Origin: Diphasiastrum complanatum
Lineage: Eukaryota > Streptophyta > Lycopodiopsida > Lycopodiales > Lycopodiaceae
Direction of reading: 5' to 3'
DNA: 64,000 nucleotides
Assembly: GCA_029204225.1 (NCBI GenBank)
Contig: CM055111.1
Coordinates: 25,796,761-25,860,760, forward strand
Below the pieces are notes generated by a model. It saw only the letters and a program-made list of their open reading frames with translations. It ran no database searches and was not told the DNA's origin. This document shows, piece after piece, positions 24,674 through 63,918 of the stretch. A program made the position numbers and the translations under genes. The first letter of the stretch is position 1. Every line of letters starts with the position of its first letter.

Positions 24674-24975
24674 GAATATAATGATTTTTCAACTTTTAGG
24701 CTCTGTCCTGATGCACCTAGCACTACTTTCCTCTCAACAAATGATGGATAAGAAAATCTCAGAAGATCTAGGACCCTAAAACACTTCTATCTTGAACCTG
24801 GCTGGTTTCCAAACATAGAAAGGAAGATTGAAAATGCATGCAACACTTTGCACACACTAAGAATGGATTACAAACTCAAACCAACCTAAACACACTCTTA
24901 CTTAAGCTCTCAAACTTTCCAGCAAGTGACCAAATCAAGTCATGGTGTGAAGAGTTACTTGCATTCTTTGGACTT

Positions 24976-38679: not shown

Positions 38680-39461
38680 TGACAAAATTTCCAAAATTCA
38701 CACGTGTGGGAAAGATCCACAAGTATGATAGATCTAATTGAGCTTTATGATTAGCACAACAACCTAATTCTAGATTGATTAGCAAGATCTAGTACAAAAA
38801 TTATGGCTTAACCACAATCTAGCATGCTAAGCTTCAAAGAATGATAACAATGAATCATAAATGAGCAAAAGTACAAGATATCAGTGTATTAGCATTAGCC
38901 TCAACACGAGTTAGAGAGAGAAAGATAGAGAGATAACAAGCAAAATTTGTGTGGATCCAAAATGGCATGAGATAGCTACAAAGCTGTGGTTTTTCATCAT
39001 AAAATATGAGGAGAGCTACACATATTTATGGAGTTTGAGGTGGAACCACATCCATCCATCATTAAATGACATCTTAAGTGAAAACTAGAGTCTATGTGAC
39101 ATTTGTCACTTCTCATGCATAAAACTCTACCAACTTTTTTCAAGTGTCCTAGTTCTAACTAGAAATGTACAAATCATCATGCATGTGTCCATTACACTTT
39201 GTGCATGCCTTGCATGTCACTATGGATCACTCACAATTAATGCATGTGAATTGGCACGAGTTTCTACAAGCATAATTTTGCTAATTCTATGTCTACAAAC
39301 TATATGAAAGTTGTACTCATCATTCTAGATATGACATATCCATGTAGCTCGAGTTCTATCTAGGCCAAACTTGGCACTTTGCATTTATGAACAACATACT
39401 TGCATGGTACAATATTTGTAGCAAGCCTAAAGTCAAGATGGATTATTTTTTCATTTCAACA
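38680..39461 (-). repeat. copia F 5' LTR
   Basis: The minus strand begins TGTTGAAATG and ends GAAATTTTGTCA. It contains CACACGTGTG at 38,699. It is the complete reference copy that shows the 3' LTR has been split and inverted. Confidence 0.85.
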
Positions 39462-39739
39462 GTTTGGTTGCTGTAATTTTCCAGAGAGTTCAAAATTTGA
39501 TTCATGGAGGAATCCTTTCATTCACATTCTATTTGGTTCTTCATGTTCTAGTCATATCTTGATGTGTAAAATTGATGTAAGAAATAGTGAAGCATCCAGT
39601 TTGGACACTATTCTCTATATCAATTACGAAAGATACTTTAGAACATTAGAAAGGAGATCTATACTTAGGATGGAGATCATTCTAAAGTTGGATCAAAGTA
39701 GTATGGTTAGAACTATGCCAAAACTAGTTGAAGAGAGAG
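39462..39739 (+). pseudogene. copia G conserved C-terminal tail (lineage 1)
   Basis: It resumes the ORF left at 28,638: FGCCNFPESSKFDSWRNPFI, MCKIDVRNSEASSLDTILY, RTLERRSILRMEIILKLDQSS, ending in a purine-rich GAAGAGAGAG just before the LTR. It is collinear with the tails of K and N; this is the most conserved part of the novel ORF. Confidence 0.8.
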
Positions 39740-40209
39740 TGTAACTAGTTTAGTCTAGTTTAGTCATATTTTGATAAATTGTCAATATGAGGCCAAAACT
39801 CATTTTAGACTTAGAGATAAACTTTTTGAAGTTATATTAGTTTAAAATACATTCAATAAACACAATTTGAAAGTGTGGAAAAGCTGGTAGTCGAGTTTGA
39901 GAGAGATTCAAATTTGAACTTTGGGTACATTGAATCTAGACCCAAAAATAGTAGAGTTTACATTTTGGAAGGAAAGCCAAGTGGCCAAATAGGGTTTGTA
40001 CACTCTATAAAAGGATGTAACTCGTGGAGAGACACATCTTCTCTCTTCTCTCTCTCATTTCATCATTATACATGGTCCTCTTTGGGTTCTACTAGTCATT
40101 GGTGCACTCTCATGATGTTATCTTGCAATCTTCTGTGTAGAATGCTCATATTTATTGCTATTTTTTGTTCCACACGTGTGAAATATAGTAGGATGCTGTA
40201 ATTGTATGG
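39740..40209 (+). repeat. copia G 3' LTR, truncated
   Basis: It begins TGTAACTAGTTTAG (short deletion after the first bases compared with K), has the TATAAAAGG promoter-like motif near 40,010 and CACACGTGTG at 40,171, and breaks off at about 40,209 where H gag begins. About 180 bases of LTR are missing. Confidence 0.8.
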
Positions 40210-41056
40210 ACAACTTGTACAAATTGTCCTTAATGGTCTAGGAGATGACTTTGAAAATTTGGCCCAAAGTTTTGCCATCCATGACACTTTGTCAACTATA
40301 GAAAAACTTCATAGTAGTGTATTAGTGGCTGAAGAGTGTAGGATGCTCCACATCAAGGCAAGAATGACGGTTCATTGTCTTTGTAGGATGGAGATGAGAA
40401 AGCCGATTTCTCATTCAAGGGAAAAAAATAAGACCAATGGAAAGAAGAAGCATCCCAAGGAGGCCAAAGAAGAGGATGATGCATCAACCTCAAAGGACAA
40501 GTCAAAACAAAAATGCTTCTTTTGTGAAAAGAAGGGGCATTATGCATCCGAATGCTACAAGATGCTAAAAGCAAAAGAGGAGGAGGACAAACAAGAGAAC
40601 CTTGCATATGAAGAGGATGGAGATGATGAGATCTCATCTTTGATGGCATCTACATCCACTCCAACAAGCAAAAGCAACTCAAAGGACACTCGGTGGATTG
40701 ATAGTGGGGCTAGCTCCCACATGACTTTCCAAAAGGACACATTCTCAACCGTACACTCTTTCAATGGTGCTAATAAATTTGTTTCTTTAACAAATGATCA
40801 AGAATGTAAGATAGATGGTATTGGTACCATCTCATTAAGTCTAGGATTTAGCAAAAGGATGGATCTAGACAATGTCCTTTTTGTACCATCAATTACCAAG
40901 AGCTTGCTTAGTGTCGGACAACTAATGGAAGATGGTTTAGATGTTCACTTCAAGCATGGAGTTTGTTCCAGCATGAAGATTGATATTTGCATAGCAAATG
41001 GTGTTAAACAAGGTAGTTTGTTTAAGTTGGATGCTAAAATTGCTATGGCAAAATAG
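40210..41056 (+). pseudogene. copia H gag (C-half) and protease
   Basis: Open frame: LVQIVLNGLGDDFENLAQSF, a Lys/Glu-rich stretch, knuckle CFFCEKKGHYASEC, protease RWIDSGASSHM, IDGIGTISLSLG and LFVPSITKSLLSVGQL, ending at TAG. The gag N-terminus, leader and 5' LTR are missing at the junction with G. Confidence 0.85.
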
Positions 41057-41059
41057 GAA

Positions 41060-41837
41060 ATCATTCATTCAAATGTACACTCTTTTTCTCATGTACCAAG
41101 TAGTGATGATAACATGCATGAAACATTCTTAGATGTTTATACAAGAGATGGTTGGATCCATCTAGTATCTTGTGTGAATGAAAGTGAAATCAACAACCTT
41201 GGTGTCAATGATCTTGCAATGATTGAAGAGGAGCAACAAAGTGATGGAGATCTTGAGGATCCACCTCAAAGATCATCTCCAAGAAGATCCACAAAGGCAA
41301 GGGCCAAGCCTTCAAGGCTCACTTATCTTGGCAAAGGTAATCAAGGGAAAGATTCTCAACCATTCACTTTCAACACTTTTCTTAATTCAATGCTTGATGA
41401 ACTATTTTGCTATGAGATCTACATGAGGCAAACCGAGGTATGCTATGAGAACTACATGAGGCAACTTGAGGGCTTCATCAAGAAGGAAGTTGAAGATAAG
41501 ATGTGTAATGACTCATTTGAGAACAAGTTTTTATGTCTTAGTGATCTAAAGATTGTTATGGACCAATAAAGAGTAAATTGGTTGTTTGATAAAATGAGTT
41601 CTCTCGGATTTAGGAAGAGCAAGAATGAGTTAATCACTCATTGTTTGGAAAAATGTGTTTTTTCTTTTGGAGAGGCAAATTGTAAGCTTCTTAATTTTTT
41701 TAGGAGAAAGTTTCAAGTTCATACATCTTCACTCAACATGGAAGAAATCAAGTGCAAAGGTGCAAGAAAGAATCAAGACTCTTCAATTCATCTTGGAGGA
41801 GATCAAGATCATAAAAGCTCTATCTTGGATATGGTGA
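41060..41837 (+). pseudogene. copia H: linker, RT scrap and lineage 2 ORF tail
   Basis: After protease there is no integrase. The frame reads a linker of the integrase-RT type (SSPRRSTKARAKPSRLTYLGKG), a duplicated RT scrap EIYMRQTE/ENYMRQLEGFIKK, then lineage 2 sequence EANCKLLNF and, in the frame ending at 41,837, HLHSTWKKSSAKVQERIKTL and KALSWIW-stop. The last motif matches the end of element J's ORF (HLHEIWKESISKM...EALSWIW-stop). The polypurine tract TTGAAGAGGAG precedes the LTR. Confidence 0.65.
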
Positions 41838-41973: not shown

Positions 41974-42651
41974 GTGAAAAATAGCCTAATTTGGCAAATC
42001 TAGAAATGTAGAACATTGTAAATATTGTGTATAATTGCGTTCCACACATGAAAGGCCAAGATGCCACATGGAAACCCACTCCTAATATAGGTTAGGTCAA
42101 GTCAAGAGAGTTGGTCATGTCTACTTGGTGGTCATTCCTACTTTATAGGACCTACACCTAAGGTTAAGGTGAAAATTTGACCAACTAGCTACCTACCAAG
42201 CATAACTCTAGGATATAGGCTAGAGTTTAGTTTTAGGGCAAAAAGAGTGAGTTAACTTCCTTATTACATACTGGAAATCCACCTAACGGAAGTCGAATTT
42301 GCTATTTATTCCAAGCTCCCATAGTGAGAAGATAGATTATTTTTGGAGCTCATTGGTAATCTCAAGCTAGTACACTATGTACATTGAGTTTTTGTGATCC
42401 AAATGAAACCAAATCAGTTTCTACTTGTTTCTCAGCTTGAAGGCCGTACTAAAGCTTGTAGTACACATGTGTGGGCTCGGATTTCAATGTTGATCAATGC
42501 TTTTGATTGTTAATCCTTGTTGTTTGTCAAACTACCAATCTAGATCAACTTTTTTGTGTCTAGTTTTTTGATAGATTGTTAAGCAAGCATCAATCACTCT
42601 TGTGAATCTTTTGTATATCCATTTATGGTCCTAAAGTACAGTACTTTCACA
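41974..42651 (+). repeat. copia H 3' LTR
   Basis: It begins TGTGAAAAATAGCC after the polypurine tract and ends CTTTCACA. It contains CACACATG and TACACATGTGTG variants of the shared palindrome. It abuts an integrase copy that lacks its own 5' half. Confidence 0.8.
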
Positions 42652-43847
42652 CTTATGGATAGTGGATTAGATGTACATTTCAAGCATGGAGCATGTTCTA
42701 TCTTGAAAGATGATAAATGTATTGCTAATGGTTTCAAGCAAGGGAGGTTATTCAAGTTGGATGCTAATGTGATGGTTGGAAGTGTAAACATGGCAAGGGA
42801 GGAGCTCACTCAAGTGGAATTGTGGCACAAAAGGTTAGGCCATCCTAACTACAAAGCTATGAAGACCATGGTGACAAAGGAGCTAGCAAGTGGACTTCCC
42901 AAGACCATATCCAAGTGTGGCAAGCTTTGTGAAGCTTGTGTACTCTCCAAATCTCATAAGCTACCTTTCAAGAGATCTTTGACAAGATCTAACTCTCCTC
43001 TTGACATTATACACTTGGATGTTCATTCATTTTCACATGAATCTAATGGTGGAGCTCTTATGTATGTCACTTTTATTGATGATAGATCAAGATACTCTTG
43101 GGTTTACCTCTTGTCTAAGAAAAGTGAAGTTTTTGAGTCCTTTGTAAAGTTTAAAACTCTTGTAGAAAAGCAACTTAATACTAGCTTGAAAGTATTAAGA
43201 TGTGATAATGGAGGGGAGTACATATCTAATAGGATGAAAGAGTTTTGTGAAACTAATGGCATTAGGAGAGAGTTCACATGCACATACACTCCACAACAAA
43301 ATGGAGTAGCTGAGAGAAAGAATAGGACACTATGTGAGTGTGCTAAAGCTTTGAGATTAGATGCATCCCTTCCTATTCCATTTTGGGGAGAAGCTATTTT
43401 ATCTGCAAATTTTCTATGCAATAGAATGACTAATAGTGCCATTGAAGGACTTACACCTTATGAAGTATTGTATGGAAAAAAGCCAAATCTTAGTGATTTA
43501 AAAGTTTTTGGATGTACTTGCTATGTACATATTCCTTTAGAAACAAGAAAAAAGGAAGATGCCACTTCATTCAAAGGCATTTTTGTTGGTTATAGTGAAA
43601 ATAGTAAAGCTTATAGGATAGCTGATCCTATTACCAAGAAAGTTGTTGTAAGTAGAGATGTATTTTTTGATGAATCTCTCCAAGCCAAAGGAAATGTGAC
43701 TTCCAACAACACTCAAGTTGTCAAGGATCATGCTATGGCCAAGGATGAGCTTCATGAAGATGAAGGCCAAGAGGAACTTGTTCAAAGTCCAAAGGTGCCA
43801 AGAAGATTAACAAGGACAAAGATTGAGCCATCAAGGCTCAAGAATGA
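42652..43847 (+). pseudogene. copia protease end and intact integrase fragment
   Basis: Frame open throughout: protease tail MDSGLDVHFKHGACS, integrase HHCC (LWHKRLGHPNYKAM, CEACVLSKSHK), D in TFIDDRSRYSW, D in RCDNGGEY, E in NGVAERKN, then FGCTCYVHIPLE and the linker to RT. All catalytic residues are present. It stops at SRLKND where an unrelated sequence begins; RT is missing. Gag-protease upstream was replaced by the H LTR. Confidence 0.9.
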
Positions 43848-44525
43848 TATGTGCGCAAACGGCTATAAGATCATTTATTGATTTTCTGATTCTTCAAGCA
43901 CTGCATGCAAATCCATGCAATGCATTGGCGTGAGAGAAATACAGTTCTCTCATGAGTAATGTCTCTCTTACTAGCGGACTTGTGGATCTTCAGATCCTAT
44001 GCAGAATTGTCTCGCATGCATATGGACTCGTATCCTGTCTGTGTGTCTTGCTTACTAGCATTAGACTACTATTTTTGTGTGTTGTATCAAGCATCATCCA
44101 GAAAGTATATAGTCTTGTCGTATAACTTCTAGATTAGAGTAATCAAACATCTACAGCTAATCACAAATTACAAGAGTGGCAGATTAGCCACGACCTAGAG
44201 TGTATCTGCTGACGTTATGCTATCAAATCAGATATCTGTACTTTTGGGTACTTGCATGATCTTGCTGGTCCTTTTGGAGCGTGAGGGCAGAAAAAGGTGT
44301 CGCGATGATTTTTGTGTGGCTTTGGGCCTTTTGACTTTCGTGTCGTCTAACTTTCTCTCCCTGTACCGCGAAAAATTCCCTTCCGCGAATTTTTCTCGTT
44401 CGTGTCTTTTCGTAAGGGTGTTCGCGAACATTTTTGCTTCGTGCCTTTTGACTTTCGTATTCGCTAACATTTTCGTCAAACAGAGGGCTGAACGCTAGCA
44501 AAGCTTTGGTAATAGAAACGTTTTG
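43848..44525. other. unassigned, with S-like LTR remnant
   Basis: Between two copia fragments. At 44,320-44,480 the minus strand holds ACGAACGAGAAAAATTCGCG, close to the ACGAGAACAATTCGCGA unit of the S LTR, and GCCTTTTGACTTTCGT occurs twice (44,327 and 44,447). It is probably a decayed LTR of an S-related element. No coding sequence. Confidence 0.4.
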
Positions 44526-48267: not shown

Positions 48268-48843
48268 TGTTGAAATTGTCACTTCCATGTTATATTTGAT
48301 CAATCATGAGATCTATGTTCATGATAGGATCTCACACATGTGGAGCCTATTTCCACGTGTGAAAGGATGTACAAAATGTACTTGATAATAGTTAGATTCA
48401 TTTTGGTTCAATTTACACAAGTGTGAACTTGATTTGTGGCTAGAATCTAAGAAAAAGTCACTTTGACCAATTTCCATGTAATTAGCTTGCACTTCCATGT
48501 GAATGAGTAAATGCTCTCGCATGTCAAGTTGTTGTTCACATGTGTGGATTAGGTTGTAGAGGATAAGATTTAGATATTCTACTAGATCCTATTTTATAGG
48601 GAATATTCTTATATTTGTGAAAGACTAGCTTTTTGGTTTCTAGCTAATGTGAGAAGTCAACTTTGGATAATGAGCATATTTGGCTCCCATTGGTGGATCT
48701 AGATGACTAGGCACCCTTCACACATGTGAAAGCCTGCTGGACAGTACACATCTTATGGATGTACTTGATCTATAGAGAGATCAACCATTTCAATAGAAAG
48801 TTGATGAGAGATTTACAATCTAGCAATTTGCTTGTGATTCACA
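48268..48843 (+). repeat. copia E 5' LTR, 3'-truncated
   Basis: It begins TGTTGAAATTGTCAC, matches 50,275 onward, and stops at TGCTTGTGATTCACA, about 270 bases short of the full LTR, at the RT junction. Confidence 0.8.
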
Positions 48844-48845
48844 CA

Positions 48846-50262
48846 TAGTGGATCTATAGAATAAAGTACAATCAAGATGGATCTATAAGTAAGTACAAAG
48901 CTAGACTTGTTGCTAAGGGGTTTCTTCAAACTAAAGGCATAGATTATGAAGAAACATTTGCACCTATAGCAAAGCTTCTAACTATTAGAATGATCATTTG
49001 TATTGCTACTTTGTTCAAGTGGAATCTCTATCAAATGGATGTGACCAATGCATTTCTGAATGGCTACTTGGAGGAGGAAATATACATGTTGAAACTCTAG
49101 GGCTTCATCAAGGATGGTGAGGAGGACAAGGTTTGTCATTTGAAGAAGAGCCTATATGGCTTGAAGCAAACACCTAGAGCTTGGTACTCTAGGTTGCATG
49201 ATTTTCTCTACTCCCTTGGCTTTGTGATTAGTTCTTATGAACCTTCAATGTACATCAAGTGTAATGATGGTAAGATCATCATTTTAGTTCTTTATGTTGA
49301 TGATATCATATTGACAGGAAATAATGGTGAAGGCATAAGAAAAGTTAAAGTTGCATTGTCTAGTGACTTCAAGATGATAGATCTAGGACTTCTAAAGTTC
49401 ATACTTGAAATAGAAGTTTCTAGAGGTAGTGATTTCACTTTCGTAAGTCAATCAAAGTATGCTACTTCCATTCTTGAAAAGTTTGGCATGAAATATTGTA
49501 AAGGGATTGACACCCCTATGAAGCAACTTTGTAAAGTTTCTAATGATGGTGATGAAGCATCCTTTGAGGACATCACACTTTTTAGAAAGCTTATAGGCTC
49601 CTTAATCTATTTGACAATCACTAGAACATATTTGAGTTATAGTGTAAGCAAGTTGAGTCAATATATGCAAGGTCCCTTGATGCATCATTGGAAAAGTGCC
49701 AAGAGAGTACTTAGATATGTCTCTTCTACTAGATTTTTTGGAATTCTCTATCAAGGATCTAACTTGTACTTGAGGGCACATTCGGATTCAGATTTTGCAG
49801 GAGACAACATGGATAGGAGATCTATAAGTGCATTTGTCACTTTCCTTTGTGGAGGAGTGATATCTTGGCTTTCTAAAAAGCAAGATACAATCTCTCTTTC
49901 CTCATGTGAAGCTGAGTACAAGGCATTGACTTCAACAACAAAAGAAATCCTATGGCTGAAAAGACTTTTGGTGGAACTACAAGTGCTAAAGGCTAAGGAA
50001 ATCCCTTGCAACTATGGTGACAATCAAGCTTCTCAACAAATTGCTACAACTCCTATCTTCCATGCTAGAACAAAGCATATTGAGATAGCTCATCACTTTG
50101 CAAGTTAGAAGGTGCAATCCAAGGAGGTACAACTTCATCATGTGCCATCATCCAAGTGCATAGCTAATATCTTAACCAAACCTTTGGCTAAAGATCCATT
50201 TTTCAAGTTAATAAGTGCTCTTGGAATTGTAGATAGATGTACATTAGACTTACCAAGTTAGA
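48846..50262 (+). pseudogene. copia E RT and RNase H
   Basis: IYRIKYNQDGSISKYKARLV begins RT near the fingers. A TAG interrupts at 49,098 (family has Pro-Glu there), then SLYGLKQTPRAW, catalytic YVDD, and RNase H with SDSDFAGD, SCEAEY, YGDNQASQ (Asp kept, unlike the 12-kb copy), ARTKHIEIAHHF. A TAG at 50,106 precedes the C-terminal ILTKPL region. Closely related to 9,716-12,043. Confidence 0.9.
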
Positions 50263-50274
50263 AGTGAGGAGGAG

Positions 50275-51120
50275 TGTTAAAATTGTCACTTCCAACTTGT
50301 TATATTTGATCAATCATGAGATCTATCTTTATGATAGGATGTCACACATGTGGAGCCTGTTCCCACATGTAAAAGAATGTGCAAAATGTACTTGATAATA
50401 GTTAGATTCATTTTGGTTCAATCTACACAAGTGTGAACTTGATTTGTGGCTAGAATCTAAGAAAAAGTCACTTTGATCAATTTCCATGTAATTAGCTTGC
50501 ACTTGTGAATGAGTAAATGCTCCCACATGTCAAGTTGTTGTTCACACGTGTGGATCAGGTTGTAGATTTAGATATCCACTAGATCCTATTTTATAAAGAG
50601 TATTCCTATATTTGTGGAAGACTAGGTTTTTGGTTTCTAGCTAATGTGATAAGTCAACTTTGGATAATGAGCATATTTGGCTCCCATTGGTGGATCTAGA
50701 TGACTAGGCAATCTTCACATGTGTGAAGGCCTGCTGGACAGTACACAGCTCGTGGATGTACTTGATCTATAAAGAGATCAACCATTTCAATAGAAAGTTG
50801 ATGAGAGATTTACAATCTAGCAATTTGCTTGTGATTTTATGCTTGGAATGCTATCAAATGTATTAGTACTTTACTCTCTGGTCACAGGTTGTATAGTGGC
50901 TGATTTCCACACGTGTGAGGCCGCCCTTGATAATTTTTTAAGTTTACATTAGTTGATCTTTCTAAATAGTTGATGATCTATGTGTAGATCTTGATCTAAT
51001 CAATAGAATTGATAGATTCATAGATTTGGTAATCAACACCTCTCGTAGATTGATTAAGTACAATCAATCATTGTTCTTTTTATTGAAAATCAATAGGAGC
51101 TATTTTTGGTATTTTTTACA
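50275..51120 (+). repeat. copia E 3' LTR
   Basis: It starts TGTTAAAATTGTCAC after GAAGTGAGGAGGAG and ends near TTTTTTACA. It contains CACACGTGTG at 50,543 and 50,908. Confidence 0.8.
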
Positions 51121-52813: not shown

Positions 52814-53181
52814 TTACATACAAAAAATGAAGAGTGGTGATATTAGAGAGGGTTCGGCTCTATTGGGAAATATTTTATGAATGACATATGGTCCTTCACT
52901 CCTGAATTTAAGTTTTTCGGGGTGCTTCTTGGAGGTATAAAAAAGCACTTGATCACCTTGATCTAAATCTTTATTGCGTAGGTGTCTATCATGCCAAGAT
53001 TTTTGACATAGTTTGTTAAAGAGTTGTGCATGATAAGAGATGAGACAAGTCTCGCACAATTGAGCTAACGTAAATAGCTTGTTTTGAACCTCCTGTTCAA
53101 TCACAACTTTCTCACATAGATCAGTGGAGAAGGTTTGCATGACTCTCAAAGAAGGAAGTAAAAATTCAACAGGCACTATTT
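52814..53181 (-). pseudogene. gypsy D integrase, C-terminal part
   Basis: The minus strand reads IVPVEFLLPSLRVMQTF at the J insertion site, then WHDRHLRNKDLDQGDQVLFY and EKLKFRSEGPYVIHKIF, the C-terminal integrase segment, ending with a stop. The preceding residues are at 63,919-64,000. Confidence 0.85.
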
Positions 53182-54011
53182 GTGCAAAAAGTACAAAAAG
53201 GACCAAGAGTGGATCCTAATCTGATCCTCAAGAGGGATTGGTTGTCAAATTACTTGATCTATCAATCTACTTCAAATTAAGATCAATCTAGATCAATTCT
53301 AGACACAAAATCTAACAAGAACAATCATTAATTGAAGGTAAGTGTACTTTATGGTTGCACATGTGTGAAACACTGTCTGAGTACGGACTCCAACCTGAAA
53401 ATCAAGTACACATTGATAGAACCTCAAAACAATCAAAACAAATGTAGACAAATGGAGAGAATCACTCAAAATTGCTTCCAAAACCAAGATTGGTGTCTCA
53501 CAATGATTATGGCCAAATGTGGCTCTATATATACAATAAGTGGGAGCTCGTGGTACTGATCATCCCTCTAATCCCACATGTGTGAAGGTGCTTTGTCATA
53601 TGATGATTCATCATGCAAAACTGACACTTGGACAAAACCTTCTATTTTGAGCACTTTTGGTCCATTTTCCTTCTATATGGAGATCTACTTGGAAATCTTC
53701 TAGAAGTCAAAATTCGTCTACTTCAGCTTATTCCACACATGTGAGCTGTCCTCTACACATGGGATATGACACCTAACCAAAGGATGTGGCTCATGCAATC
53801 AATAGATTGATGCCATGTGTCATATGTCTAGAAAACTAGTTTTTGGCCTTTTTAGCCACTAGAACTTGAATTAAATCATATGTACAACCTATATGATTAT
53901 GGTACATGAAAAGTACACTATTTTCACACGTGGGAATAGGTTCCACACATGTGTGTTTATCTATATACAAGATTTTTGGCCTCTACCAAGCTTATTTTTG
54001 CATTTTTCACA
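53182..54011 (-). repeat. copia J 3' LTR
   Basis: The minus strand begins TGTGAAAAATGC and ends TTTTTGCACA, 830 bp, abutting the polypurine tract at 54,012-54,022. It carries CACATG(T)GTG variants and one CACACGTGGG. Confidence 0.9.
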
Positions 54012-54148
54012 CTCCTCAAAAATCTAGCTTGGTAAATCTAGCTTGATGGAAAACGTGATGATCTTGAACTTGACTCCATGGGCTGAATTGGTCTTTGCTA
54101 GTTCAAAAGGTGTGAAGATCAGCCAATGAGCTTGATGTTGATCTGAAA

Positions 54149-55071
54149 TCACCATATCCATGATAGTGCTTCTTTGATGTTGACATCTTTGATGAGCTCG
54201 AGAACTTTGCACCATCCTAGCATCTTCGAAATTGATTCCTTCCAAATTTCATGTAGATGCTTGACTTTGAGGCTTGCTCCTTCTTCATGTGCATGCTCCT
54301 CCATGAGAAAATAAAGATTTCTTCTTGACTTATTAGGATCACAAAGATCTAACATCATGTTACCATGATCTAGAGAATTAGACTTATTCAAATTGGCAAG
54401 ACTATGCATGCTATAATAACAAAGTGTTTACATCATATCTTCATGCTTGTTTACCATGCTAATCTCAGATCTAATGAGGCTAAATACTTCATTATGGAGA
54501 TAAGTGTCTTTAGAACATGATTCACTTACTCTCGTAAAGAGTTTACAATTTGCCTCAATACAAATTTTCAAACTATGAGTGAACAAATCACTTTTGCTCT
54601 TAATGACTCAAGAGCATACATTTGATGAAATAATCATTTGCTTTCTAATTGATTTAAAATCAATTTCAACCTTTTAAGAACATCATCTATGTTCTCAAGA
54701 GAGACTTCATACTCAACTAGTATGGCTTTACTCCAATTTTGAGATGCAATGATCTCACTAAAGCAAATTGATTTATCAAATGACATAAGAGAAGTAAGTA
54801 TGAGATGTATACCACATGAGATATGCTCCTCTTTCCCTTGAAATGTGAGCCACATGGAATCAACCATATTTCTTGAGTTTCTTTTTGGAATCACACACTT
54901 GAACCTTGAGATGATTCTTTAAGATCCTCTTCATGGTGCTCCTTCTTGATGGAAATCCGAGACCTCCATGTCTCATAATGATCACAACAACTATGACCAC
55001 ACAATATGCACTTCCTATGATTATCAAAATTACTTATGCTAGAAACATAAGTCCAAAAATCACCACAACTT
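54149..55071 (-). pseudogene. copia J ORF, second module and C-terminal tail (lineage 2)
   Basis: The minus strand, continuing the ORF of 60,533-61,490 across nested K, reads RKCILCGHSCCDHYETW, SICFSEIIASQNWSKAILVEYE (54,700-54,800), then after frame changes CIEANCKLFTRVSES and DTYLHNEVFSLI, and finally HLHEIWKESISKM...IKEALSWIW-stop. Each of the first motifs repeats one in the first module. The last motif matches the end of copia H. Several stops break it. Function unknown. Confidence 0.65.
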
Positions 55072-55347
55072 TGTGAGAGATTTCAAGTAGTTTAGTCTAG
55101 TTTAATCACATTTTGGTAAATTGTCAATAAGAGGCCAAAACTCATTTTAGACTTAGAGATAAACTTTTTGAAGTTATATTAGTTTAAAATACATTCAATA
55201 AACACTTTTGAAAAGTGTGGGAAATTTGGTAGTCGAGTTTGAGAAAGATTCAAATTTGAACTTTGGGTACATTGAATCTAGACCCAAAAATAGTAGGATT
55301 TACATTTTGGAGGGAAAGCCAAGTGGCCAAATAGGGTTTGGAAACTC

Positions 55348-55354
55348 TATAAAA
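55348..55354 (+). promoter_or_regulatory. LTR TATA box
   Basis: TATAAAA lies about 275 bases into the LTR, and the same motif is conserved at the matching place in the K 3' LTR (60,155), G (near 40,010) and I (near 46,132). Transcription would start about 30 bases further on. Confidence 0.6.
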
Positions 55355-55489
55355 GAATGTAACTCGTGGAGAGACACATCTTCTCAGTATACATGGTTCT
55401 CTTTGGGATCTACTACTCATTGGTGCACTATCTTGGTGTTATCTTGCAATTCGATGTGTAGAATGATCAATTATTGCTATTTTCGGTTT

Positions 55490-55499
55490 CACACGTGTG
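55490..55499. promoter_or_regulatory. CACACGTGTG palindrome (example; recurrent in LTRs)
   Basis: A perfect 10-bp palindrome containing a G-box core (CACGTG) flanked by CA/TG. Exact copies occur at 1591, 12138, 12332, 12730, 28658, 37555, 38699, 40171, 46293, 50543, 50908, 55490, 60318, 62903 and 63265; most are within LTRs, and 62903 is in the J leader. CACATGTGTG variants are also common. It is likely a transcription-factor site; CGTGTG halves also fit the brassinosteroid-response element bound by BZR-type factors. Confidence 0.6.
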
Positions 55500-55704
55500 A
55501 AATACAGTAAGGTACTGTAATTGTAAGGACAGCAAACATATTTTATGTTTTGGTTCATGTTTGATCAATATCTCTTAGAGTTTGCATCTCATTTTGTATG
55601 TAGATGCTGATTTTTCTACATTGGCATGATTGTTGGTTTGCTCCTTATTGTAACCAAAGATTTGGGACATGGATTGGATCTTGAATGATCTGAAATCCTT
55701 CACA

Positions 55705-55716
55705 TGGTATCAGAGC
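55705..55716 (+). other. copia K primer-binding site
   Basis: TGGTATCAGAGC, a perfect initiator-Met primer site directly abutting the LTR. Confidence 0.95.
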
Positions 55717-56305
55717 TCTTGTGTTTCAGATTATGAAAGGATCAACCATCTTTAGCAAGGATTTGGAGGAGTTACCAATGCTAGAGCATGCTAGATTGAT
55801 CTCTACTCAAAAATCAGCATTTTTGCATGTGTAGAATTGATCTTTTGTAGGTCAAAACTCAATATAGGGTTATATACTTGATCACTTCCGATTTCACACT
55901 TGGTTTACTGGATTTAGATGATATTTGGTGCATTAGGAAGGTCTCATTGGAGTCTACAAGAAGATATACCAAGTTTTTAGAAATTGCATGTAGAATTTGA
56001 GATATTCAATTTTTTGTAATTTTGTCAAAACCCTAATTTTGATTGGATCTCTAGTTCGTGAGGTTACTAAACTTCATTTGAGTGTGTTTCAATCTTAGTA
56101 AGTGGCAAGAATCATTAGATTGAGGATAGATCATAGGTTGATCAAGATTTCACTATTCTATGTGTTGATTTTCTAGTTAGAAGTGCTAGAAGAGATTTGA
56201 GAGGTTCCATATCTTTGTGATTTCTTTTTTAGTTCATTTTTTGACATTCAAGAGAGTGCTTTGTGCATTGGAACAGGTTGAAAGAGAAGATCAGGTCACT
56301 TCAAC
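55717..56305 (+). other. copia K leader
   Basis: Non-coding leader of about 590 bases from primer site to gag ATG; presumably holds the packaging signal. It is homologous to the leader of I (46,520-47,076). Confidence 0.7.
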
Positions 56306-57600
56306 ATGGCTACAAGTGGTGGATTTATGTTGGAGAGCAATGATAGGCTTACCTCAATCAACTATTCTACTTGGAAGGTGAGGATGGGGTCCTTATTGGA
56401 GATAAATGAGTTGATGGAGATTGTTGTAGGTTTGGAGGAGAGACCAGCAACTCAACAAGATCAAGTGAGGTATGACAAGAGAGCAAAGAAAGCTCTACAC
56501 ATGATTAAGATGAATGTTACCAATGAACTTCTCAAGAAAGTTGGTAAGTGCACATCATCTTTGGAGGCTTGGGAAGCTTTGAAGAAGCTTTATGAATCCA
56601 AGTCTACATCAAGAGTGCTTACTCTTAGGAGGCAAATCTTTCAAAGTTTGCAAAAGAAGGAAGAGAGTACTCATGCTTTTGTTTTGAGGGTTAAAGCATT
56701 CAATAATGAGTTAGCATGTATTGATGAAAGCATTAAAGAGGTAGAGCTTCTTCAAGTTATACTTAATGGCTTGTTGGATGATCATGCTAATCTTGTTCAA
56801 AGTTTTGCTATTCAAAAGACTTTGCCAAGTATTATGGATTTGCAAGAGATCTTGGTGAATGAGGAGTATAGGCTTCAATCAAGAGGAGGTGGATCTACAT
56901 CGACATCTTATTATGAAGAGGATGCTATGTTCATCAAAGGCAAGTTCAAGGGCAAAGGCAAAGGCAAGTGGTCTAAAGGGCAAGATCAAGGTGAGACTTC
57001 TTCTTTTGGCAAAAAAAAAAGATAAGTCTAAGTTGAAATGCTTTTATTGTGGAATCAAAGGGCATTTTGCAAATGAATGTTTGAAGAAGCAAAGAGATGA
57101 AGGTAGCAAGCAAATCAACTTTACTACTAATGATGAGGATCTAGGTGGTGGTGATTCTCTTTTGATGTGTTCTTCAAGTCCAATATCAAGTGAAGGTGAC
57201 AAAGATTCATGGTGGATTGATAGTGGAGCTAGCTCACACATGACTAGTCACAAGGAGTTCTTTACTTCTTTGGTCACTTATGATGGAGCCAAGAAAGCAA
57301 TTCACATGGCCAATGGTGGTGAGTGTGTGATTGAAGGTATTGGTTCAATTCCTATTTGTCTCTCTACTAATAGGAAAGCAAGACTTGATGGTGTTCTTTA
57401 CATTCCTTCACTTTCAAAGAATTTGCTAAGTGTTGGTCAAATGATAAAGAAAGGACACATGGTAAAGTTTGGTGGTGATGCTTGTTTCATTACAAAGGAA
57501 GAAATTTTGGTTGCTAGGGGCAATAGACAAGGTAAACTTTTCAAGCTTGATGCTTTTGTTATGGCTAACAAAAAGGATGGAATGGAAAAGGAGATTGGTC
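56306..57600 (+). pseudogene. copia K gag and protease
   Basis: It starts MATSGGFMLESNDRL, the first ATG after the leader and the same start as N and I. UBN2-type gag (NYSTWKVRMGSLLE, ALHMIKMNVTNELL, STSRVLTLRRQIF, LLQVILNGLLDDHANLVQSF), then a frame change at an A10 run (57,011-57,020), knuckle CFYCGIKGHFANEC, protease WWIDSGASSHM and LYIPSLSKNLLSVGQM, ending near KLFKLDAFVMANKK. Only the A-run shift breaks it. Confidence 0.88.
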
Positions 57601-59883
57601 TCAACTTTCAAAGTTACCTTTTAGCATCAATAAGATTGGTGGATCTTATGCAAAGTCTAACAAGCTTCCTTATGCTAGATCTAGGTCAAGATCTAATATG
57701 CTTCTTGGAGATGTTCATCTTTGTGCTAACTTGGCTAGTCTTGAGGATAATGATGGTGTTTCAAAGGTTCTTCATGGCAAGTGCAAGCATGCAAAAGGTA
57801 AGGAAAGATCTAACTTCATCAATGGAGGTGAAGGTTCTTCCTTGAAAAAGATTGTTGTTAATGATTTCTTTGATCATATGTCAAAAGATGTTGCTAGGTG
57901 CATGCATGAAGGGGGTGGTTCTTCTACATTCTTTTGTGATGAGTCCAAGAAAGTCATTTTTCCAGCAAGTGGAGTCACATGTCTTCATAAAGAGAGTAGA
58001 TCAAATGGTTCTATCAAGAGACTTAGTGAGGGAGATACTCACAAGTCAAGAAGAAGAGAAGTATGTGAAGAGTTCAAAGTAGGATGTACTTTGAATGATG
58101 TCATTGTGAATGATAGTGAGGAAGATTCATTATCATATGATTCATTACCTAAAACATTGAGTAGAAGTTCTTGTTTGAAAAAAGAGAGTACTTCAATCAT
58201 CCTTATGTTGAAGGTACTAATCATATTTTTCATGGCTTCTAATGTTTTTGAGGTTTCTACTTCTTATGATGCAATCATTAAGAGGGAGTCTTATGAAGGA
58301 AAGAGCAATGGAAGATTGGTTTTTGGGAAGATCCAAGGCATGGATCTCACATATCTTCATCAACTCAAAGGATTCTATGATTGTGAATTGATCACTCATG
58401 ATCGAGATGGCAAAAGGTTGGTTGGAGAAGACTACATGGAACAAATCGAGAGGCAATTTCTTCAAGACAAGGCAGATCTCATTGGTGAGCTTATTGAGGT
58501 TTTGTATGAACTCAAGAGGGCTGGATTTCTTAGGTTTGATATTCATCTTCACCTACTCTACTTCGTGTTGGATGGAAAGTTTGGAATCTATCTTTTGATT
58601 TATGATGGTGACATTGGTGACATTGTTTTCACTAACCTTTGTGAAAATTCGAGATCAAGCATTGATGAGATCTTGTTGGATCTAGATCATATGTTTGAGA
58701 GGGAGTATTTTCAGAGGTTCAGGTCTGAAGATATTCATATCTTTGATATCTTTGATGATCAAGAGAAAGATAAGCAAGTGGAAGCGACAAACTTTGCTTT
58801 ATTCACATGTTTTGAAGAATTTTCTTGTGTAGATGATGCTATGCAAGTGGATATTGGTTCTCATGTTTTTCATAATGGAAAAGCAAGTAATGGATCTGGA
58901 AAAAAAAGTTTGTTCAATGACTTTGATGGTCAAGAGGAAGACCAAGAGGTTGGTCTCAAAGGGCTTCAACAACACAAAAGGAAAGGTGGCAATTTGGAGC
59001 TAGTCAAGAGCATCAAAGGAAGAGTATTTGGCAAAAATGTTTTGGATCTGTTTTTGCAGCTTATTGAAAACTTAAGTAAGGTCAAAGGAGCAGCAAGGAA
59101 GTGTTGTTCAAGTTTACTTTACTTGTTCTATCTCATGTTTGAGCTATTTCATGTGGATGTGTGCAAATTGTCAAGATATGGACAAACTAGCTACATTGTC
59201 TTGCAATATCTTATTGTTGGAGTTGTACTAGCATTCTTGGCTGGTTTTGCTGATGGAAATGAAGCTAATGGAGGTTCATTATGTCACTCATCCATGGCTA
59301 AGTTCTCAAGTGTTGAGCTACTTGGTGCCAATACTTGGAGATTGTCAATTTTTGGTGAATTCATGGTCATTTTCTTGTGTCAAGTAGATCTTGAAGATGC
59401 ACTAGTGCAACTTACTTGGTTTATGCAGTCATGTGGTGCTGGATTTGCATCATTAATGTACTCACCTACTCATGGATTTCCAAGGTTTGATAGTTTCTTG
59501 TGGCAAGATGGAGATGGAGGCTGTTTTATGGTGGAGACATATCAAGAAAGGACAAAGTTGGAGGACACAAGCAAGCAAATGGTCATCACTCATATTTATT
59601 GTTTGGTTGCTGTAATTTTTCAGAGAGTTCAAAGTTTGAAACATGGAGAAATCATTTCATTCACATTCTATTTGGTTCTTCATGTTCTAGCTATATCTTG
59701 ATGTGTAAAATTGATGTAAGAAATAGTGAAGCATCCAATTTGGACACTATTCTCTATATCAATTATGAAAGATACTTTAGAACCTTAGAAAGGAGATCTA
59801 TACTTAGGATGGAATTCATTCTAAAATTGGATCAAAGTTCTAATGTCAAAACTATGCCAAAACTAGTTGAAGAGGGAGTGTGA
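57601..59883 (+). pseudogene. novel non-pol ORF of copia K (lineage 1), ~650 residues
   Basis: Begins after protease in an altered frame (a missing A near 57,611 relative to N) and then runs open for over 600 codons from 57,698. Conserved with N in order: HKESRSNGSI, FKVGCTLNDVIVNDSE, DLTYLHQLKG, GKRL.GEDYMEQ, DLIGELIEVL, LHLLYFVLDGKFGIYLL, FEREYFQRFRSEDI, then FYLMFELFHVDVCKLSRYG and LLGANTWRLSIF (shared with G). A frame change near 59,590 leads to the tail CKIDVRNSEAS...RTLERRSI, whose TGA stop is formed by the first bases of the LTR. Two hydrophobic stretches (SIILMLKVLIIFFMA and IVGVVLAFLAGF) could be membrane segments. No known domain is recognised. Confidence 0.78.
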
Positions 59884-60532
59884 GAGATTTCAACTAGTTT
59901 AGTCTAGTTTAGTCACATTTTGGTAAATTGTCAATAAGAGGCCAAAACTCATTTTAGACTTAAAAATAAACTTTTTGAAGTTATATTAGTTTAAAATACA
60001 TTCAATAAACACTTTTGGAAAGTGTGAGAAAGTTGGTAGTCGAGTTTGAGAGATATTCAAATTTGAACTTTGGGTATATTGAATCTAGACCCAAAAATAG
60101 TAGGGTTTACATTTTGGAGGGAAAGCCACGTGGCCAAATAGGGTTTGGAAACTCTATAAAAGGATGTAACTCGTGGAGAGACACATCTTCTCTCTTCTCT
60201 CTCTCATTTCATCATTATACATGGTTCTCTTTGGGTTCTACTACTCATTGGTGCACTATCTTGGTGTTATCTTGCAATTCTATGTGTAAAATGATCATTT
60301 ATTGCTATTTTCGGTTCCACACGTGTGAAATACAGTAGGGTACTGTAATTGTACGGACAGCAAACATATTTTATGTTTTGGTTCATGTTTGATCAATATC
60401 TCTTAGAGTTTGCATCTCATTTTGTATGTAGATGCTGATTTTTCTACATTGGCATGATTGTTGGTTTGCTCCTTATTGTAACCAAAGATTTGGGACATGG
60501 ATTGGATCTTGAATGATCTGAAATCCTTCACA
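59879..60532 (+). repeat. copia K 3' LTR
   Basis: It begins TGTGAGAGATTTCA after the polypurine tract GAAGAGGGAG and ends CCTTCACA. It has a CT-rich stretch near 60,190-60,210, TATAAA at 60,155 and CACACGTGTG at 60,318. Confidence 0.92.
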
Positions 60533-61490
60533 AACTTCGCATGATTTTTCCAATATTGAAATCAAAAGATATTTCCATCTCAATAAGGCTAATTACTTGC
60601 TTATGGATATAAGTGTCCACTTTGGATGCTTCACTTATTCTCATAAGAAGTTTACAACTTGCCTTTAAGATTGCAAACTTATAATTTTCATCTTTATGAA
60701 TGAACACATCATTCATGATCTTATTGAAACCAAAAGATCCTACATTATGAAGACATTTCCATTTTCTTGACTTCCTACCTAATGTAAGCTTACAAGGAAA
60801 ACATATTTTGCTATCTTTCAAGGCATCACACTCAACTAGTATTGCCTTAATCCACCTTTGAGATACAAAAATCTCTTCAAAGCAAAATGGTTTTTCATAA
60901 GTTGACATGAGAGCATAAATGAAACTATTTTCATTTTGTGATTGCTCTTTATTCTTGATTGATTTCTCTTGGATAATAACAATAAGTTTGAACTTATCTA
61001 AAGTTCCAAGCAAAATACTTTTCAAGGACATAAAATAAATCCAAGTTACTTTCATGAAAGTGACATCTATCTTTGCATCTTGAACCAAACAATGCACTTC
61101 CAAATGAAAAATTTCAAAAGATTCAACATGTGTTGTGATGGACTCTTGAAGACAAATCTTGCAAGTCCTTGTGAGACTCCAAGCCTCATTCACCTTTCCA
61201 CAAAGGAAACACCTTTCCTTGGACTTGTCCTTCTTGTATTTTCATTTTGAACTTGAAGCTCCATCCTTCACCTCGGCCCTCTTGCTTTGGTTCTCCTTGG
61301 ATGGATTGGTCTTCTTTTTGTAGCATCTTGAGAAAATATATCCTCCCTTGCCACAAAGGTTGCACTTAGGATCCTTTCTTTCCTTCAATAGGATGCCACT
61401 TATTGATGTCATGTGAATAAAAACCTGTGACATGATTCTACAAATGTAATTTGTGACTTTCAAGAGACTAGATTTGAACATCTTCAACAA
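60533..61490 (-). pseudogene. copia J ORF, knuckle and first module (lineage 2)
   Basis: One minus-strand frame with one stop (TGA at 61,242). It opens with a gag-like knuckle CNLCGKGGYIFSRC in which Tyr replaces the knuckle His, then CFLCGK...TCKICLQ, then PFCFEEIFVSQRWIKAILVECD, then ASCKLLMRISEASKVDTYIHKQVISLI. The last three motifs recur in order in the second module at 54,400-55,030. The frame is split by K at KIMRSL. No protease, RT or integrase motif; no known domain beyond the Cys motifs. Confidence 0.68.
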
Positions 61491-63074
61491 TCTAGAAGGA
61501 TCTACAAAAGGTCTAGCTCACAAACCTAGGAATCAATCTTCACAGTAATGACTAGTCACTTGAAAACTTTGCTTTGATCACTAAGATAAAAGCACACAAT
61601 CTTTGAATCAAATCACTAAAGAAATCAGATCCAATCTCCTATTGGACTCATCAAATACCAATGACTTTTTCTTTTGAAAGTTGAAATGGATATGAAAAAG
61701 ATTTGACACCTAGATTTTTCTTTTCACTTGACTAGTTTTCTCAACACTTGAGATTCTTGAACAAAAGATGGGTTTTGTTTCAAATACACGAAAATCAAAC
61801 TTAATCACTTCTTTTGGACTCACTCTTGACCCAAATAATCTCACACTTGAGATTTAGAATGAATTTGATTTGATTTGACAACAAACCATACCACCAATTT
61901 TTCACAAAGCTTAAAAATTAGACAACTAGAGATTCACAAGGATCTCAACCATGCATGAATACTCAAATATGGACTCCTGCTCATTCTAGACATCCAATGG
62001 GATCTCAAATTGACCCTCACACTCTCACAAAGAAAGTTGAATAGAACTAATTTGAGCTTCATACATACTATGTCAATTTTTGCTCAATAAATTGATTCAA
62101 TCACCCCTATTGGATTCTACCAATTACTCTACCTTTAGAGACTTGGAATGAAATTCAAAATCAAAAGTTGTGATTTTTCTCACTAAGATATTGTGCTTCA
62201 AAGAGCTAATGCCACTTAGAAAGATTTGATCACCTAGGAAGAGACAAACTCTCCACCAATAACAACACATAATGAGCTTCTAGATCTTGCCCTCTAAAAG
62301 GAAGAAACTCTTAGAAAATTGGATCCCTCTCTACACATTTGTCATAGACACCTTAATGACTCTTTTCAAACCTTACAATCACTCAAACAAATTGAGTAGG
62401 GTTGAACAATGTGACTTGGATCTCAATCTCTTTTCTAGAACTCTCAATTTAAGCCAATCTATGTCAAATTCTACAAAAGATTTGCATAGATGCTCTATAT
62501 GCACTAGAAACTCTCAAAGGTTTCACTTGGAGGACAGATCCAAAGATGTTTTCTAGCAAATTGATGCTTCTAAACTTGACCCTATCACTCTTGAACAAAT
62601 CTAGAGTGATGGTACAATGGATTTCAACCTCTCACCTTGCATATCACTCCTTAATCTATGATTTTTAGCAAAATCTCTCTCAACTTTAACATGCACTCAA
62701 AAAATCAGAAATGATCAATTAATGCACCTATTTCAAGCTTCAAATTTAATTTCTTGGCTGATCTAATCCAAGAACTAATCAAGGGATTAGATTCTCTATA
62801 GAAAATGCTTGATTTTGCACCAAAAATCTCTCAAATTGGGTGTGTGAGTCAAATTGTACAAATTTTTGAATTTTCTCAGCCAGAACCGGAGCTGTACGAT
62901 CTCACACGTGTGAAAAGGGTTCCTACAGCCCACAACAAGTTCTGGTCTAAAAATTTTGAGAATATCTATCAAATCCAACTCGCTACCCAAAATTTGACTA
63001 GTTTCCAAAAAACTGCTAATTTTGGCTTTGATTTGGATTAACCCTATCAATTTCAACAAAACCTCTTGTACTAG
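61491..63074 (-). other. copia J leader
   Basis: About 1.6 kb between primer site and the Cys-motif ORF, with no credible frame; any gag N-terminal sequence here is too decayed or divergent to recognise. It contains CACACGTGTG at 62,903, outside the LTR. Confidence 0.5.
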
Positions 63075-63086
63075 GCTCTGATACCA
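63075..63086 (-). other. copia J primer-binding site
   Basis: The minus strand reads TGGTATCAGAGC, a perfect initiator-Met site directly abutting the LTR, followed by CTAGTACAAGAGG. Confidence 0.92.
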
Positions 63087-63918
63087 TGTGCAAAAAGTAC
63101 AAAAAGGACCAAGAGTGGATTCTAATATGATCCTCAAGAGGGATTGGTTGTCAGATTACTTGATCTATCAATCTACTTCAAATTAAGATCAAGCTAGATC
63201 AATTCTAGACACAAAATCCTAACAAGAACAATCATTAATTGAAGGTAAGTGTACTTTATGGTTGCACACGTGTGAAACACTGTCTGAGTACGGACTCCAA
63301 CCTGAAAATCAAGTACACATTGATAGAACCTCAAAACAATCAAAACAAATGTAGACAAATGGAGAGAATCACTCAAAATTGCTTCCAAAACCAAGATTGG
63401 TGTCTCACAATGATTATGGCCAAATGTGGCTCTATATATACAATAAGTGGGAGCTCGTGGTACTGATCATCCCTCTAATCCCACATGTGTGAAGGTGCTT
63501 TGTCATATGATGATTCATCATGCAAAACTGACACTTGGACAAAACCTTCTATTTTGAGCACTTTTGGTCTATTTTCCTTCTATATGGAGATCTACTTGGA
63601 AATCTTCTAGAAGTCAAAATTCGTCTACTTCAGCTTATTCCACACATGTGAGCTGTCCTCTACACATGGGATATGACACCTAACCAAAGGATGTGGCTCA
63701 TGCAATCAATAGATTGATGCCATGTGTCATATGTCTAGAAAACTAGTTTTTGGCCTTTTTAGCCACTAGAACTTGAATTAAATCATATGTACAACCTATA
63801 TGATTATGGTACATGAAAAGTACACTATTTTCACACGTGGGAATAGGTTCCACACATGTGTGTTTATCTATATACAAGATTTTTGGCCTCTACCAAGCTT
63901 ATTTTTGCATTTTTCACA
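63087..63918 (-). repeat. copia J 5' LTR
   Basis: 832 bp, nearly identical to 53,182-54,011. A TATATATA stretch at 63,433-63,440, with the LTR read on the minus strand, is a candidate TATA box. CACACGTGTG at 63,265 is CACATGTGTG in the 3' LTR copy, a single C-to-T change at its CpG. Confidence 0.92.

Follow-up and report, generated by a model that had tools for sequence, protein, structure and literature searches.

Decayed polymerase sequence within the open reading frames of non-autonomous copia-type elements from Diphasiastrum complanatum

Among described systems, the wheat elements RLG_Sabrina_SA and RLG_WHAM are semi-autonomous gypsy retrotransposons, with non-autonomous (NA) variants in which gag-pro has been replaced by other coding segments (PMC9744471). 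The present work concerns a comparable situation in copia-type elements of Diphasiastrum complanatum. It centres on element J, located in a stretch of 64,000 nucleotides (NCBI GenBank assembly GCA_029204225.1, contig CM055111.1, positions 25,796,761 to 25,860,760 of the forward strand) that is referred to as the window, and on the related families H, K, M and N. The wheat elements are high in copy number and keep gag-protease without reverse transcriptase (RT) or integrase (IN), which is the likeness to the elements described here, with J comparable to an NA variant. They differ in being gypsy elements in which gag-pro gave way to what are described as unique short proteins, whereas the D. complanatum elements are of the copia type and carry an extra segment that is, by alignment, largely decayed pol still in frame.

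Other likenesses are partial. RLG_Quinta (PMC11302176) is a non-autonomous partner in which gag is fused to an unexplained domain, DUF1, and for which sequence exchange has been reported; it differs in being a centromeric gypsy element. TR-GAG elements (PMC8704663) are non-autonomous long terminal repeat (LTR) elements with one open reading frame (ORF) that includes gag, and a copia example is given. Their ORF is gag only, whereas here the frame continues through decayed pol, for 290 codons past protease in M and 770 codons in K, and J is without gag. BARE2 and non-autonomous RLC_Angela (PMC9744471) are copia elements thought to move using the proteins of a partner. The coding sequence of non-autonomous RLC_Angela is described there as full of frameshifts and stops, whereas many copies of the present elements retain the frame.

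The LARD (large retrotransposon derivative) and TRIM (terminal-repeat retrotransposon in miniature) classes are defined by the lack of coding capacity; frames of 659, 738 and 1203 amino acids (aa) place the present elements outside them. In K/N and in H, gag-protease is under selection and RT and IN are absent or dead, as in semi-autonomous gag-pro elements. H, K, M and N are copia relatives of those elements and, by analogy, would be moved by a partner. Gag-pro semi-autonomous elements, gag joined to an unknown domain and TR-GAGs are already known; among the titles and abstract openings surveyed, no report was found of a non-autonomous copia element whose frame is kept without constraint on its residues. 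What appears to be new is a frame that is kept while its residues drift, for which we infer a mechanism.

The reading preferred here is that J is probably one of a swarm of non-autonomous copia-type elements that recombine with one another. Their internal region would be a copia gag-pol frame in which IN and RT have decayed too far for most domain searches to recognise, with selection acting to hold the frame open and not to preserve the residues that it encodes.

Frames of recurring length in J and its relatives

Copies were sought in the assembly that holds the window (1.74 Gb). A 237-aa piece of J returned 18,920 rough candidates, and each of the best 150, which were scored, matched at 92% identity or more, as would be expected from the earlier note on this DNA, which had anticipated further copies. 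The J LTR returned 2,974 candidates, with all 40 of those scored matching at 97% or more. K, M and J each have uninterrupted frames of recurring length, which were followed to the 3′ LTR or close to it in several copies of J, three of M and one of K. A frame of 656-659 aa is kept in several J copies, and the 659-aa length was found in 9 of the 150 scored rows with no stop inside the match. A second J frame, of 467-468 aa, was free of stops within the match in 23 of the 150 rows (24 when read-through is included). The 468-aa form, as read in L044, L045 and L056, is accounted for by arithmetic as a 531-nucleotide (nt) in-frame deletion and retains the ALSWIW end. The 738-aa frame of M was open in 36/150 rows of a search with the H-type gag of locus L031 (39 with read-through), and the 1203-aa frame of K in 19/131 rows of a search with a tail segment (20 with read-through). 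A small number of the rows counted seem to stem from duplicate contigs. Among 150 scored rows, the longest frames with related integrases measure 1327 aa (two rows), and fuller relatives therefore exist. Five J matches at G000:C8:41303839-41322406 are spaced exactly 4,465 bp apart, forming a tandem array of LTR-plus-body size.

Within the window, J lies on the reverse strand at 53181-63918, with K inside it. It is delimited by an LTR pair and the target site duplication (TSD) CTATT/CTATT, and the span and motifs given in the earlier note are correct. LTR-pair alignment places the 5′ LTR at 63087-63918 and the 3′ LTR at 53181-54014. Each LTR is about 832 bp long, and the pair is mismatched at 6 of the 831 columns in the alignment (99% identical; Kimura two-parameter distance, K2P, 0.007). 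The primer binding site TGGTATCAGAGC adjoins the 5′ LTR at 63075-63086 and presumably matches the initiator methionine tRNA. The LTR ends TG...CA and the 5-bp TSDs of Ty1/copia elements are present both in J (CTATT) and in K (AACTT).

The ORF of J is read on the same strand in three parts. The 5′ part (60533-61517) contains a gag-type CCHC remnant, an integrase remnant and module 1, with one in-frame stop. Beyond K, the stretch at 54637-55071 holds the end of module 1, a linker and the start of module 2, and its frame is broken. The 3′ part (54152-54601) carries the end of module 2 and the tail to ALSWIW, again with one in-frame stop. The tail HLHEIWK...ALSWIW occupies 54152-54280, and its stop is 134 nt short of the 3′ LTR. 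The ORF in the window is disrupted by the K insertion, in-frame stops and frameshifts; an intact frame was seen only in copies elsewhere in the genome. With Pfam, J yielded neither a gag nor a protease domain, which sets J itself apart both from copia elements defined by gag-protease and from the semi-autonomous gag-protease type. The absence of a recognisable pol domain, as described in the earlier note, is in line with the Pfam search of a 656-aa J ORF, which returned no family at E ≤5, as did that of a 361-aa H ORF.

The LTR pair of the nested K (21/633, K2P 0.034) is more diverged than that of its host J (6/831, K2P 0.007; Fisher p 0.0003), and both TSDs are intact. The near-identical LTRs and the TSD of J had been read as a sign that the element moved recently. 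The LTRs and the TSD are as described, but the recent movement is insecure because the LTRs of J diverge less than those of K nested inside it. Conversion of the LTRs of J, or LTRs of K that were unequal at insertion, may account for the contradictory dating.

The two modules proposed for J are indeed homologous. Module 2 of the open copy L007 aligns with module 1 of the window's J across 136 columns at 37.5% aa identity (E 2e-17), and the two module regions within the window's J agree at 68% of 346 nt columns. The module is also common to J and H. Element H is 5′-truncated in the window (40213-41837, forward strand), where it comprises the end of gag, CCHC, protease (Pfam Pol_BBD 1e-21), an IN remnant, a linker and the module to ALSWIW; its frame is broken besides. 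The ORF of L007 matches the H copy L027 at E 4e-41 and 5e-23, one match for each module. That H ends in the same ALSWIW motif as J holds as well: its tail at 41703-41834 (forward strand) is 48% identical to the J C-terminus over 44 columns (E 9e-7, measured between the L007 and H tails). The stop of H is 135 nt from the 3′ LTR, with the LTR start placed by eye. Taken jointly, the eight H-type loci that were read contain gag, CCHC, protease, integrase remnant, IN-RT linker, module and ALSWIW in that order.

The J LTR has no match at E 1e-3 in the window's H region, as the earlier note had held, and four other H copies have matches of only 37-58 bp. L031, however, is an H-type element (gag-protease-module) with a J-type LTR, 95% identical over 831 bp, and the description of J as a separate lineage with a different LTR was therefore too strong. 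An LTR is thus common to J and an H-type element, from which it follows that LTRs and bodies have been swapped among elements. At 39460-40214 there is a chimeric junction, in which a K-type 3′ piece (tail end and LTR) abuts the truncated H gag. The H-family copy L068 is an in-frame patchwork, with an integrase core fragment ahead of the protease end and one frame on to ALSWIW.

The nested element K (55072-60532, forward strand, TSD AACTT/AACTT) consists of gag-protease and a decayed IN/RT tail, with its frame broken in the window. Its gag, CCHC and protease/Pol_BBD lie in two overlapping frames at 56282-57845 (Pfam Retrotran_gag_2 2e-22, Pol_BBD 1e-24; forward strand). They are followed on the same strand by the tail at 57569-59883, which alignment and ORFs identify as decayed integrase and RT, the last third being without assignment. 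The 770-aa K tail returned no Pfam family. In other copies, such as L080, the frame of K is uninterrupted over 1203 aa and runs from gag through decayed integrase to decayed RT. In the window the last frame stops at 59879, within the first bases of the 3′ LTR. Family N (21090-24688, reverse strand) is a diverged relative of K with gag-protease and a decayed tail, its frame likewise broken in this copy; the decayed tail shared by K and N is 73% identical at the nucleotide level. Family M was found through the gag of L031 and has both Retrotran_gag_2 and Pol_BBD in Pfam. Three of the four M copies fetched contain an LTR pair, 98.6-99.7% identical over the longest aligned piece, and the stop of M lies 209-210 nt from the 3′ LTR.

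Polymerase ancestry of the modules and tails

Alignment to recognisable copia pol indicates that a large part of the tails, though not every segment, descends from pol. Much of the J/H module aligns as decayed copia integrase and reverse transcriptase that is still in frame, the ALSWIW segment excepted. Two stretches of the window, both on the forward strand, served as yardsticks: a copia RT and RNase H at 10247-12040 (Pfam RVT_2 6e-75) and a copia integrase at 42583-43881 (Pfam rve 8e-11, SH3_retrovirus 8e-31, gag_pre-integrs 2e-17). Seven J and H segments were aligned locally to these and compared with 300 shuffles of each query, and four of the seven outscored every shuffle against a recognisable IN or RT. 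The C.LCG region of J (aa 106 onward) matched integrase (z 16, 0/300 shuffles), and the starts of modules 1 and 2 matched the RT N-terminus (z 6.5 and 6.6, 0/300 each). The stretch of H ahead of the module matched the IN-RT linker and the start of RT (z 23.9, 0/300).

For K and M, 200 shuffles were used in each case, with the whole M tail as the M segment. The K tail of L080 matched IN (z 9.1, 0/200) and the RT of locus L023 (z 7.7, 0/200), with a lower score against the RT of the window (z 3.6, 3/200). By eye, the YVDD motif of the decayed RT in L080 has become YDGD. The M tail matched integrase (z 19.3, 0/200), and the M frame is above the Pfam cut-off for a retroviral SH3-like domain (28.3 vs 27 bits). 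IN precedes RT in the pol remnants of J, K and M, all of which are decayed. A PDB sequence search with the K frame returned the Copia virus-like particle protein at E 2e-5, along with weak zinc-finger and nucleocapsid matches.

A DNA pattern for 'CKL..R.SEAS..DTY' with up to three mismatches occurs at six sites of the window, against 0.04 expected by shuffling. Two of the six are in RT-bearing elements, where the frame, placed by arithmetic, reads DEASFEDI. Over the CK..SEAS motif, K and N agree at 20/20 third positions, with the tails overall only 73% alike. The first idea was of a cis element at the nucleotide level; pol ancestry was preferred because the pattern scan located the motif in RT. 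The sequence GTGAAGCATCCNNNNNGGACACT is letter-perfect at 59726-59748 (K), 39587-39609 (a K-type piece), 21216-21238 (N) and 60612-60634 (J module 1), and a cis role for it and for CK..SEAS is possible.

A captured host domain in the J, H, K and M parts was rejected, as no creditable Pfam match was returned. A Bunya_G2 match (E 7e-4, 19.4 vs the 25-bit cut-off) and weak matches to I-HmuI_NUMOD-like and eIF3g, also below cut-off, were dismissed as chance. Elsewhere in the window, at 48268-50836, an RT-RNase H segment (48849-50108) lies almost alone between direct repeats that are about 570 bp long and 91% identical, resembling an LTR element stripped of all but RT.

Frame maintenance and residue drift

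In K and N, gag is conserved, the residues of the tail are near neutral and the frame is kept. When single copies were compared (L080 for K and the window's N), the ratio of nonsynonymous to synonymous rates, omega, was 0.11 (0-0.19) in gag, with dS of 1.8 near saturation. It was 0.47 (0.26-0.87) in the CCHC-protease region and 0.92 (0.75-1.17) over 693 codons of tail. Differences fixed between four K and two N copies, including one of each from the window, were then counted, a design meant to exclude damage after insertion. Over 375 codons of tail there were 130 nonsynonymous (N) and 35 synonymous (S) fixed differences (omega 1.32). No stop was common to both N copies, against 5.5 expected, and only 8 of 2000 neutral simulations were without a stop. 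The one real stop belongs to a single N copy; two other 'stop' labels are steps in multiply changed codons (TCA/GAA). In a codon-blind nucleotide alignment, all seven fixed insertions and deletions (126, 3, 3, 12, 36, 3 and 9 nt) were in frame. As 18/73 of such changes in single H copies are in frame, seven out of seven would arise by chance at about 6e-5. In the single-copy comparison the gaps are in frame across codons 488-990; a later cluster of +11, -4 and +5 nets +12, and additional gaps (12 and 3) preserve the frame.

The H variant set comprised 26 copies, with two duplicates dropped and with high-scoring segment pairs below 85% identity and codons present in fewer than eight copies excluded. 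Among variants found in at least three copies, gag-protease had an omega of 0.21 (12 N, 20 S, 1 stop) and the module 0.79 (22 N, 9 S, no stop). Two indels are shared (3 and 33 nt), both in frame. The J variant set held 30 sequences, with L001 left out and the deletion-subfamily region masked in eight copies. None of the 73 variants present in at least four J copies is a stop, and a 42-nt indel (12 copies, two placements) and the 531-nt deletion are shared in frame. Between the J modules and H, 6-8 stops would be expected under neutrality, and the compared copies have none; for each module, 0/1000 simulations were stop-free. Gaps in the 3′ part of the J-H nucleotide alignment are in frame; this alignment is without H L061, and its J row L047 is only 1 nt long. 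The J copies L037-L056 and the H copies L057-L076 were hand-picked from the 150 best matches, H mainly for long frames. Hand-picking biases stop counts low in shared and single classes alike, and the contrast between classes is what counts. The duplicates L004, L028 and L030 were dropped.

Extra ORFs of retrotransposons are often taken for accessory genes. The shared module could accordingly be a functional accessory protein, for example one for RNA packaging in trans, common to J and H and duplicated in J. The strong J-H similarity (E 4e-41), the duplication itself (E 2e-17) and the zinc-knuckle remnants within the J ORF speak for such a protein. So do an omega of 0.42-0.51 between J module 2 and H, and an omega of 0.67 for shared J variants against 1.04 for singletons (p 0.038), from which the residues are not fully free. 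This explanation is nonetheless unlikely. By alignment much of the module descends from pol, K and M hold different decayed tails at the same place, and no Pfam family was returned for one J and one H ORF. In the same H copies and for variants in at least three of them, the module drifts at 0.79 against 0.21 for gag-protease, and the K/N tail lies at 0.92 to 1.32. An accessory ORF would have a non-pol origin and constrained residues, whereas four of the seven J/H segments and segments of K and M have pol ancestry, and the tails of H, K and N have omega values of 0.79-1.32; for J (0.67) the case is weaker, and the ALSWIW segment is without assignment. Of the 'shared accessory ORF' of the earlier note, the module and C-terminus common to J and H stand, and an independent accessory gene does not, much of it being decayed copia pol.

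It has also been considered that the decay of pol is young and that the frames are open through recency alone, with no selection. The three M copies with LTR pairs 98.6-99.7% identical and the recurrence of exact frame lengths, as in young copies, would agree with this. Yet the decay is not recent, because K and N share their decayed tail at 73% nt identity. With no fixed stop, seven of seven fixed indels in frame and neutral simulations that seldom remain open (8/2000), recent debris is a very improbable explanation. A C-terminal spacer, whereby length or bulk on Gag-protease matters (for particle stoichiometry or protease timing) and sequence does not, agrees with free residues and a kept frame in the gag-protease families H, K, M and N, but is highly doubtful, as J keeps the frame in many copies without a gag or protease domain, tail lengths are far apart (290 codons in M, 770 in K) and J has a recurrent 531-nt in-frame deletion.

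A number of results weigh against a swarm of elements selected for an open frame and not for residues, in addition to the two omega comparisons for J given above. Against the pol at 10247, no match was found for H NDSF..THC (z -0.7), H CVFS..end (z 0.6) or the J tail (z 0.1), nor, with three targets tried, for the last third of the K tail (z 0.1 to 0.7). DNA alignments to pol are weak for J module 1 (z 2.5 and 4.1) and module 2 (z 2.5 and 1.8), reach at most z 1.5 for K, N and H, and range from z -0.3 to 2.3 for the ALSWIW tails. The 60 codons ahead of the K/N tail (16 N, 6 S, omega 0.94) are no tighter than the single-copy tail, so that clear constraint is lacking at the end of the protease region as well. 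The window's N has a 4-nt frameshift in protease and six stop positions in the frame of K, some within the gap cluster. When all shared variants of H are taken, gag-protease (0.55) and module (0.75) do not differ significantly (p 0.21), and an uninterrupted gag-to-ALSWIW frame is absent from the H copies read. Shorter frames recur too, with 282 aa in 6/150 rows of the gag search. In J, stops are not depleted among shared variants (6/170 vs 11/446 in singletons), a 1-nt frameshift is common to two copies, and four fixed gaps on the 5′ side of the J-H alignment are not multiples of three (7, 1, 28 and 14; net 48). Because of these shared stops, the frameshift and the out-of-phase 5′ gaps, J backs the idea of a kept frame less cleanly than K/N. 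Furthermore, transposition is reported for an Arabidopsis copia element that lacks any intact ORF (PMC8704663), and the coding sequence of wheat Angela non-autonomous elements is degenerate (PMC9744471), so that an open frame is not always required.

Translation as the possible target of selection

For a swarm with a selected frame and drifting residues, staying translatable may outweigh the protein that is made. Gag, RT and IN would be delivered in trans, with the gag-protease families feeding the particle pool and RT and IN coming from fuller relatives. RNAs translated almost to the 3′ LTR would leave more copies. Were the frame to end shortly past protease, some 1-2.5 kb would become 3′ untranslated region (UTR), open to nonsense-mediated decay or to silencing linked with translation; alternatively, translation may be coupled to packaging. 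In either case selection would act on the open frame, and the tail peptide would be incidental. Plants subject RNAs with long 3′ UTRs to surveillance. In Arabidopsis, translation is reported to be required for the silencing of EVD RNA (PMC8892269). There it is a spliced short gag RNA that is concerned, and for the present elements the case serves as an analogy only.

J most likely went further, losing gag and protease and doubling the decayed-pol module, as a gag-protease-less derivative of the H/K/M/N kind. A bolder proposal, put forward tentatively, is that these elements form a long-lived copia class in which dead pol acts as a translational shield: survival of the genomic RNA would depend on ribosomes crossing it, and J would have kept only the shield.

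Should this hold more widely, selection on translation itself could be recognised by a frame that stays open with its residues unconstrained, and the assessment of unknown ORFs and DUFs from non-autonomous elements would change. This raises a testable question: whether translation across the whole RNA, and not its product, decides the survival of a defective retrotransposon RNA.

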